Part shown: positions 2,802-4,406 of the stretch, one piece after another
How positions within the stretch are numbered: position 1 is the first letter of the stretch
Layout: every line of letters starts with the position of its first letter
Source: Chloroflexota bacterium
GTDB taxonomy: Bacteria > Chloroflexota > Anaerolineae > UBA4142
Length of the DNA: 16,575 bases
Reading direction: 5' to 3'
Assembly (NCBI GenBank): GCA_023380675.1
Contig: JAMCRS010000052.1
Coordinates: 1 to 16,575 of the forward strand
Position numbers and translations under genes: made by a program
The notes under the pieces: model-generated
Database searches by the model: none
The model's input: only the letters and a program-made list of their open reading frames with translations
Told to the model about the DNA's origin: nothing

Positions 2802-4103
2802 TTAACGTCGCGACCACAATCGCGTGAATTGGCCAAAACACCCGCGCCCTGAGCGAACGGGGACCGGCAATGGCGCCGGGGACGGAACGGGCGCTGGGGT
2901 TGGGGAAGGTGCGGGAGAGGGTTCTGGCGCCGGAGCGGTCTTTGCAATCGCCTTTTGATAGGCCGCATAGACTTGCGCTCGTCCGTCCCCCTCCACATTC
3001 GCCGGCACACCCAAGTCCTTGGCAGTGCTCATAAGCAGATCCTTGACTTGCTGTGGGGAAAGAGTTGGATTTGCTTGAAGCAAAAGAGCACACGAACCTG
3101 TAGCGTGTGGAGTCGCCATCGACGTTCCTGAGGCAGTCGTGTAGGAGGCGTTCACGGGCGTGCCCATGGTCGTGCCGGTCGCGCGGCAGGAAACGATGGA
3201 TACGCCGGGGAAGCAGACGTCCGGCTTGATCCGGTTATCGCTCGTCGGGCCGCGCGAGGAGAAATCCGCCACTTGGTCCGACTTGCTCGTCGCTCCGATC
3301 GTGATGACGTTCCGTGCGCACCCCGGCGATCCGACGGTCGACGATGCCGGGCCGGCGTTCCCCGCAGCCACGCATATCGCGACCCCGCGGCCGACTGCCG
3401 CGTCGCAAGTGACCGACAACGCATCTGTGCCGTCGCAGGCGCCGTCGCTGCCGAGTGATAAGTTGATCGCCTGCACGCCCTGCTGAACGGCCCATTCGAC
3501 GCCGGCAATTACGTCGCTCGTGCTCCCGGAACCGTCGGCGCGCAGCACCTTGGCCGTATAGTACAGGCACTCGGGAGCGACCCCTTTGTATTTGCCGCCG
3601 CTGGCTGCTCCTGATCCCCCCACGATGCCGGCGACGTGCGTCCCGTGACCGTGATTGTCGTTCGGACCTTCGCCGGTGAAATCCTTCATCAGGGCGATGC
3701 GGCCAGCAAAATCCGGGTGGGACGGGTCGATGCCGGTGTCGACGATGCCGACTTTGATCCCCTTGCCGGTGACGCCTTGCTGCCAAACGCTTGGGGCGCC
3801 GATCAACGGCACGGACACGTCGAGCATCGTATGGACCGGCTCGTCGAACCAGATCGTCTCGACGGCGTCGAGGCTGGCCAACGCATCGATCGCGCTCGGC
3901 AGAACCGTGTGTGCGCTTGCCGATATGAGGCGAAACGCATAGTGCGTCGCCGCCACGCCCGCGACCGCTGAGGCGACGTCGAGCAGTCCCGACCGATATT
4001 GGACGATGATGCGCAGCGGAATCACGCTCGGTCCGAGGGCGTGTAACTGCATGCGGCTGGCGAGGTTGGAATGGACCTTCGATTGATTCGGCTGGACGAC
4101 CAC
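2802..4103 (-). CDS. Subtilisin-like serine protease (S8) with its own I9 prodomain
   Basis: Serine endopeptidase of 433 residues. An I9-like propeptide spans about 29-93. The S8 catalytic domain (about 94-385) has Asp122 in IVDTGID, His153 in HGTHVAG, oxyanion Asn249 in AAGNAG and Ser328 in SGTSMATPH. A Pro/Ala-rich linker (390-416) ends in a short basic tail. The GTG start at 4103 is supported by GGAGG six bases upstream. By analogy with subtilisin BPN', where the propeptide ends HAY, self-cleavage is expected after Met93 (V-H-T-M) to give a mature N-terminus at Leu94. No signal peptide or hydrophobic N-terminal helix is visible, which is unusual for a prodomain-bearing subtilase. It follows a standalone I9 gene by 21 bases in the same frame. 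The activity call is secure; location and target are unknown. Confidence 0.93.
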   Translation of the reverse strand: MVVQPNQSKVHSNLASRMQLHALGPSVIPLRIIVQYRSGLLDVASAVAGVAATHYAFRLISASAHTVLPSAIDALASLDAVETIWFDEPVHTMLDVSVPLIGAPSVWQQGVTGKGIKVGIVDTGIDPSHPDFAGRIALMKDFTGEGPNDNHGHGTHVAGIVGGSGAASGGKYKGVAPECLYYTAKVLRADGSGSTSDVIAGVEWAVQQGVQAINLSLGSDGACDGTDALSVTCDAAVGRGVAICVAAGNAGPASSTVGSPGCARNVITIGATSKSDQVADFSSRGPTSDNRIKPDVCFPGVSIVSCRATGTTMGTPVNASYTTASGTSMATPHATGSCALLLQANPTLSPQQVKDLLMSTAKDLGVPANVEGDGRAQVYAAYQKAIAKTAPAPEPSPAPSPTPAPVPSPAPLPVPVRSGRGCFGQFTRLWSRR

Positions 4104-4124
4104 GGTCTTCCTCCGAAGGACGGG

Positions 4125-4379
4125 CTACATTGTGTGGACCGTTCTGTCCTCTTCGACAGAGTCCACCCAGGACTCGTTCGCCAACGCAAGCACTGCGGCG
4201 CCGGTCCCTTCGATCGCAAGGGTCGAAGTCAGCGAGAATGTGTATCGTACGACGACGCCGTGCGCTTGAGCGGCAGCCGCGCAAGCGCCGGCGTCGCCGT
4301 TGAAGCGAACGATCACCTTGATGGATGCTGACGCGTTCTGGGTCAAGCGGGTCTGCAATTCGGGCGGGATATTCGCCAT
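4125..4379 (-). CDS. Standalone I9-type propeptide/inhibitor protein
   Basis: An 84-residue protein that is essentially one I9 fold: strand KVIVRF (21-26), helix with repeated Ala (about 29-40), strand VVVRYTF (42-48), second helix (60-69) and strand WVDSVEED (71-78), ending in VHTM. It resembles the prodomain of the protease encoded next to it and stops at the equivalent of the cleavage site. Standalone I9 proteins such as yeast proteinase B inhibitor 2 and Pleurotus POIA1 inhibit subtilases, so an inhibitor or trans-acting folding helper is the natural reading. The stop is TAG at 4125-4127; seven sense codons then lead, in the same frame, to the protease GTG. The ATG at 4379 has GGAGG twelve bases upstream, rather far. 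No signal peptide is seen. Alternatively this is the first half of a tandem-prodomain protease interrupted by an amber codon. Confidence 0.82.
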   Translation of the reverse strand: MANIPPELQTRLTQNASASIKVIVRFNGDAGACAAAAQAHGVVVRYTFSLTSTLAIEGTGAAVLALANESWVDSVEEDRTVHTM

Positions 4380-4406
4380 AATCGTACGCTACCTCCACGC
4401 CCATCT

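Follow-up and report, generated by a model that had tools for sequence, protein, structure and literature searches.

An open reading frame (ORF) of 84 residues, with the predicted fold of a subtilisin prodomain, lies directly ahead of the gene for an S8 subtilase in a Chloroflexota bacterium, and the subtilase carries a prodomain of its own. The question raised by this locus is whether the ORF encodes a separate protein and, if so, what a second, free prodomain would do beside an enzyme that already has one in cis. The window, that is, the whole stretch of DNA that was analyzed, comprises 16,575 nucleotides, and the parts of the gene pair within it are as follows.

4391..4396 (-): GGAGGT, Shine-Dalgarno-like, 11 bases ahead of the standalone ATG, a rather long spacer (sequence)
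4125..4379 (-): standalone protein of predicted I9 fold (trans-prodomain), 84 aa, ATG start, TAG stop at 4125-4127
4110..4114 (-): GGAGG, Shine-Dalgarno-like, 6 bases ahead of the protease GTG (sequence)
2802..4103 (-): S8 subtilase, AprX-like, 433 aa, no signal-peptide-like segment by hydropathy (PF00082, E = 1.4e-66)
3825..4103 (-): the protease's own cis prodomain (residues 1-93), with VHTM as its last residues before LDVSV (homologue alignments and model)
3000..3767 (-): catalytic domain, PF00082 residues 113-368 (Pfam match)

The ORF, its TAG, the seven codons that follow, the protease GTG and the GGAGG were all found in the window sequence at the positions given by the original prediction. 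The seven sense codons occupy 4124..4104, and the GTG at 4103 is located 21 bases past the standalone gene in the same frame as the 84-residue ORF. The boundary of the cis prodomain at VHTM/LDVSV was inferred from alignment, and the last four residues of the standalone, VHTM, are also the last four of the neighboring cis prodomain. A sigma-70-like promoter (TTGACA-16-TAGAAT, 11/12) is present at 2798-2771 (-), directly behind the protease stop and ahead of an ABC transporter ATPase gene. This gene is therefore probably outside the two-gene unit formed by the standalone and the protease.

The assignment of the protease was based on the presence of a Peptidase_S8 domain with its catalytic motifs. 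Across 27 sequences, D122 and H153 were invariant and S328 nearly invariant, and by motif these three residues are presumed to be the catalytic triad. A search with the protease returned 7,589 proteins at E ≤ 0.001, and among the matches listed there were 119 other homologues with 56 to 84% identity to the window protease. Source records call some of the homologues "serine protease AprX", and some are from Chloroflexota or Anaerolineae. Most of the 119 begin no more than a few residues from the start of the window protease and have their own prodomain (...SKIHPNL...), and inspection by eye showed no second prodomain in front of any of them. Peak hydropathy was 0.49 over the first 25 residues of the window protease, whereas another ORF of the window, taken as a control, reached 2.65 within its first 40 residues. 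By hydropathy only, a value of 2.0 or more within the first 25 residues was reached by 1 of 116 proteases (the window's included) and by none of 111 standalones. Judged in this way, the window protease is apparently cytoplasmic.

Many of the listed proteases end in a proline-rich linker followed by a short tail, GCL---(I/L/V)KSLLGG(R/Q). The tail of the window protease (2802-2860, minus strand) reads GCFGQFTRLWSRR, and the protease P0109 ends in a hydrophobic segment in place of the GCL-type tail. A 60%-identical protease with its own prodomain was also observed at the end of a viral-classed contig (IMGVR_UViG_3300015195_000006; L005, 4830-5978), where it is located behind a long repetitive ORF that resembles a tail protein by eye and is not accompanied by a standalone prodomain.

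Coding status and predicted fold of the 84-residue ORF

The GC content of the ORF by codon position (0.59/0.49/0.75) and its codon likelihood (0.23 per codon) were both within the range of the other window genes, and the best of the five alternative frames over the same stretch reached 0.17 and contains a stop. A profile of 116 prodomains, from which the ORF was excluded and in which the window's own cis prodomain was included, matched residues 4-84 of the standalone with 36.8 bits (E = 4e-10), the best of 2000 shuffles scoring 9.5 bits. The original prediction had aligned the ORF along its length with residues 29-93 of the protease. In the pairwise comparison, BLASTP paired residues 46-84 with residues 55-93 of the protease in a weak match of 39 residues (38% identity, E = 7e-4). 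Taken alone, the pairwise likeness of the standalone to the neighboring protease is modest.

The Pfam I9 model PF05922 gave no match over its cut-off to the window standalone, and the ORF was therefore filed by its predicted fold and by its homology to cis prodomains. The same model matched 10 of the 25 members of the prodomain alignment A1 at E ≤ 10, with a best E value of 6e-4. The structure model and its PDB matches correspond to a subtilisin propeptide (I9) with a free C-terminal tail, and the window standalone is a separate protein with a predicted I9 fold.

As an alternative, the ORF might be what is left of a protease duplication, or have arisen by chance. Such an origin would be in keeping with the outcome of searches of 5.8 billion proteins by a method that needs shared exact words, where the ORF alone retrieved only itself and the alignment A1 retrieved the ORF and four protease pieces, nothing else. 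A scan of genome contigs gave three distant loci only, a scan of viral contigs with the prodomain alignment gave no confirmed match, and all 635 matching records of a plasmid search were below 60% identity. Against such an origin, a profile search identified standalone frames in roughly one hundred genomes, as described below, and closely related pairs of standalones displayed purifying selection. The dN/dS of the standalone gene was 0.07 to 0.61 with a median of 0.22 in 16 of 49 pairs, namely those that were at least 65% identical, and was 0.127 and 0.119 in two further comparisons (L090/L099 and L101/L103, respectively). The 49 pairs had been selected by lowest dS, and the other 33 were only 20 to 46% identical and saturated, their values of 0.45 to 1.55 not being used. 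Close relatives of the standalone gene are under purifying selection. A remnant or chance ORF is ruled out by the codon statistics, the profile score and the conservation, and we attach practically no probability to it.

Recurrence and descent of the pair

The only sample that was not chosen for positives consisted of 400 genomes of one phylum (that of G067), for which the best four candidates per genome were scored. Nine of these genomes contained relatives of the window protease at E = 1e-70 or better. A separate prodomain frame was located just upstream of the protease at six of the nine loci (L090, L091 and L094-L097), and the other three (L092, L093 and L098) had the protease without a small gene just upstream. 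Two orders were then included that had been picked because each contained a positive genome, and here the upstream frame was present at 5/5 new loci (7 genomes) and at 4/4 (5 genomes). When 400 genomes were searched with the standalone profile, 37 of them were matched at E = 0.001, six by pairs already known. One further match (L114) is a frame of 188 residues close to the end of its contig, with no S8 gene in reach, and the other frames listed are at least 381 residues long. Four short I9 frames were also followed. At L086 and L087 the S8 part is nearby but in different frames, L088 runs off the end of its contig with S8 in the same frame, and L089 is a true standalone/protease pair.

A larger set was obtained with the profile A4, which was built from 16 standalones. 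With a threshold of E = 1e-6, it matched 113 of the 244 genomes in one class (that of G673), for the most part in short frames. This class is probably within Chloroflexota, an assignment drawn from the names of some of the protease homologues and from the matches of a glutamine synthetase and a glycosyltransferase of the window to G067 and similar genomes. The pair was also found in a second phylum, that of the genome of L003 (Acidimicrobiia). Among the A4 matches listed there were 98 further loci with short frames, which together with 15 earlier ones make 113 standalone loci, the window not being counted and two loci sharing one genome. At 105 of the 113, an S8 gene with its own prodomain is located downstream on the same strand, adjacent to the standalone and co-oriented with it, a figure that gives the frequency of a protease beside a standalone and not of a standalone beside a protease. 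The remaining eight comprise two that are cut by a contig edge and six without an S8 gene nearby. The median distance from the standalone stop to the start of the cis-prodomain match was 26 nt (105 loci).

These loci bear directly on a proposal of the original prediction, that the locus encodes a tandem-prodomain protease from which amber read-through would yield both a free inhibitor and a double-prodomain form. In the window itself, the agreement of the two frames, with one TAG as the sole interruption, speaks for the proposal. The relatives contradict it. Their standalone stops are TGA (42), TAA (34) and TAG (29), the standalone is in frame with the protease at 34 of the 105 loci and out of frame at 71, and none of the 105 has an S8 frame with two prodomains. 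Furthermore, the window protease has its own GGAGG, and most of its listed homologues start near the same place. Amber read-through as a general scheme is refuted by the varied frames and stops, and as a reading of the pair it is given next to no credence. A comparison of the stop codon across genomes had been set beforehand as a check on the separation of the two products, and the variation is well illustrated by L106 and L107, whose standalones are 85% and proteases 92% identical. The stop is an out-of-frame TAA in the former and an in-frame TAG in the latter, with possible protease GTG starts 1 and 0 nt after it, respectively. Stop and frame vary and the split is kept. The pair is conserved, and the standalone I9 protein and the protease with its own prodomain are separate proteins, which was the other reading offered by the original prediction.

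The protease also occurs by itself. In 11 of 11 genomes of other orders of the G363 class (L142-L152), a protease with an EED-type cis prodomain was found with no standalone gene at the locus, and these genomes provide a useful natural comparison to the paired loci. The gene neighbors differed between the 8-kb loci L162 and L163 when their longer ORFs were compared by eye.

The distances between standalones correlated with those between the catalytic domains of their partners (r = 0.85, 0.79 and 0.71 for n = 16, 14 and 11, respectively). In the same sets, the cis prodomain and the catalytic domain gave r = 0.84, 0.74 and 0.53, so that the standalones did equally well or better. The correlation shows joint inheritance and not contact.

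With respect to descent, birth of the standalone by duplication of this protease's own prodomain, as originally suggested, is not favored by the identities. The window standalone is 45 to 54% identical to five full-length standalones (L171, L172, L175, L176 and L178), whose proteases are 67 to 72% identical to the window protease, compared to 27% identity (alignment) to the cis prodomain of its neighbor. In a first tree of 16 standalones and 42 cis prodomains, the standalones formed one side of a branch with support of 90/88, recovered in 88% of 200 bootstrap trees. For a second tree (41 standalones, 47 cis prodomains), the earlier standalones were joined by one in three of the longer new ones. 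Its best tree again needed one change, with support of 6/0 and recovery in 4% of the bootstrap trees; the bootstrap trees mostly needed two changes, and shuffled labels about 29. The window ORF grouped among the standalones in the best trees once other standalones were added. A recent copy of the neighboring prodomain was set aside on these trees, and this is the least firm of the rejections, as kinship to the neighbor's prodomain was not rejected by the AU test when the window was the sole standalone (p = 0.44). The standalones are probably one lineage or two rather than recent or repeated copies of the neighboring prodomain.

Trans and cis signatures and the proposed function

In subtilisin and in SUB1-ProM, Glu69 and Asp71 are involved in helix capping and the tail is placed in the active-site groove, according to the available text of PMC6993865. 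These features were examined in 114 standalones, the window included. Glu is kept at the position of BPN' Glu69 in 107 and Asp at that of Asp71 in 109, and a Trp is present seven residues ahead of the latter position in 105. The C terminus falls exactly at the P1 equivalent, the residue expected to occupy the S1 pocket, in 45/114 and within -1 to +2 of it in 75/114, the P1 residue being mostly Leu (41) or Met (31). A tail of 3 to 22 residues extends beyond the P1 equivalent in 38/114, and a free C terminus at P1 is therefore not required.

The cis prodomains differ at the first of these positions. At 100 partner loci from the class and phylum of G673, the residue in place of Glu69 is Trp (87), Tyr (12) or Phe (1), and the window has Trp; one of the 105 partner proteases did not align. 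Glu is found there in 4/4 cis prodomains of the G363 order, and the cis-trans difference is thus not universal. Glu was also seen by eye in L142-L152, the 11 loci without a standalone. In the larger group, only the cis copy has replaced Glu by an aromatic residue, which points to a division of work between cis and trans prodomain, with the classical binding feature left to the latter.

We consider it likely that the co-encoded, trans-acting prodomain inhibits the protease and that the cis prodomain folds it. The upstream gene would give a free, prodomain-like protein of I9 fold, and the downstream gene an AprX-like subtilase whose cis prodomain would fold the enzyme and then be cut off. The free protein, encoded first and next to the protease, would occupy the active-site cleft of the mature enzyme by means of its C-terminal tail (VHTM in the window). 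It would in effect be a ready-cut prodomain, acting as a product-like, tight inhibitor that may shield the cell until it is degraded or outnumbered. With a protease that lacks an export signal, such a protein would be an antidote.

A different assignment is suggested by the six standalones that have no S8 gene in the surrounding 12-19 kb. Five are located upstream of a gene for an M3 oligoendopeptidase F on the same strand (Pfam M3, E = 6e-45 to 8e-63), four of them within about 45 nt; the sixth (L268) precedes a GDP-mannose dehydratase gene. The M3-linked standalones are as follows.

L267, 804-1076 (+): standalone directly before the M3 gene
L269, 8443-8721 (+): standalone directly before the M3 gene
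L271, 9567-9863 (+): standalone directly before the M3 gene
L272, 2712-3056 (+): standalone directly before the M3 gene
L270, 14373-14651 (-): standalone about 650 nt before the M3 gene

From this arrangement, the free protein could be thought to serve another target, either a different subtilase or, as an adaptor or regulator, peptide turnover together with oligoendopeptidase F, with adjacency to S8 being one of several contexts. The great excess of standalones that precede an S8 protease (105/113) and the correlation of standalone with catalytic-domain distances speak against it, and we regard it as very unlikely. Inhibition of the adjacent subtilase is retained as the preferred function.

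Relation to known systems and significance

SUB1-ProM of Plasmodium is a standalone propeptide-like protein that inhibits a subtilase with its own propeptide, and its gene is in a locus adjacent to subtilase genes (PMC6993865). The window standalone is alike in its neighborhood and would be alike in its inhibition. SUB1-ProM and SUB1 are eukaryotic and secreted, whereas the window pair is bacterial, apparently cytoplasmic, and arranged in direct tandem. POIA1, the yeast peptidase B inhibitor, Arabidopsis SPI-1 and TgMIC5 are, in the source passages available, all eukaryotic, unlike the window pair. The SpeB-Spi and staphopain-staphostatin systems involve cysteine proteases, whereas the window protease is an S8 subtilase. 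Spi resembles the prosegment of SpeB. In both systems, transcription of the bacterial protease gene is coupled to that of the inhibitor gene, protection of the cytoplasm is the role attributed to the inhibitors, and Spi and the staphostatins are described as mutually unrelated in sequence (PMC3462683). The Bacillus subtilis protein IPI, an inhibitor of the intracellular subtilisin Isp1, is similar to the role proposed here but has an Ig-like fold, unlike the I9-fold standalone. According to PMC3901451, its gene is near a subtilisin gene in no complete genome, and an intracellular location of IPI in every case is doubted there.

In ASP-ORF2 of Aeromonas sobria, the chaperone of a bacterial subtilase is encoded by a separate, adjacent gene, and the C terminus of ORF2 sits at the catalytic site and inhibits (PMC5638518). 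By analogy, the free protein of the window could be mainly a foldase in trans for the protease, with inhibition as a by-product. This interpretation is consistent with I9 prodomains both folding and inhibiting (available text of PMC6993865) and with the small gene being first and close at the median spacing given above. However, ORF2 is encoded downstream of a protease, ASP, that is called propeptide-deficient in a title cited in PMC5638518, whereas the window standalone is upstream and its protease has a prodomain. All 105 downstream S8 frames likewise have a cis-prodomain match, and a propeptide-less partner of the ASP type was found in none of them. Members of the protease family without a nearby small gene also exist. 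A mainly folding role for the free protein is thus unlikely, and inhibition in trans beside folding in cis is preferred.

Standalone inhibitors of I9 type, co-encoded pairs of protease and inhibitor in bacteria, and a chaperone acting from outside on a subtilase that lacks a propeptide are known already from the sources cited. The literature searched, which mostly excluded subscription papers, gave no description of a standalone I9 protein encoded beside a cis-I9 subtilase in bacteria, or of trans and cis prodomains combined in a conserved bacterial tandem. The standalone I9-type inhibitors named in the available text of the cited papers are eukaryotic, and the Bacillus inhibitor of intracellular subtilisin has another fold and an unlinked gene.

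A wider reading, to which we give somewhat less than even credence, is that an old lineage of diffusible I9 proteins and a cytoplasmic subtilase with its own prodomain constitute a module of control, common throughout one class (probably within Chloroflexota) and present also in a second phylum. The cis copy would fold the enzyme, having given up the acidic helix cap for an aromatic residue, and the trans copy, which retains this cap, would be a standing antidote that in some genomes has moved beside oligoendopeptidase F. If this is true, an antidote beside oligoendopeptidase F would link the first protein cut to peptide breakdown. The pair offers a tractable system for how a cell tolerates a powerful cytoplasmic protease and for telling apart the folding and inhibiting jobs of prodomains, and specificity could be studied on the roughly one hundred matched pairs that nature provides at these loci.
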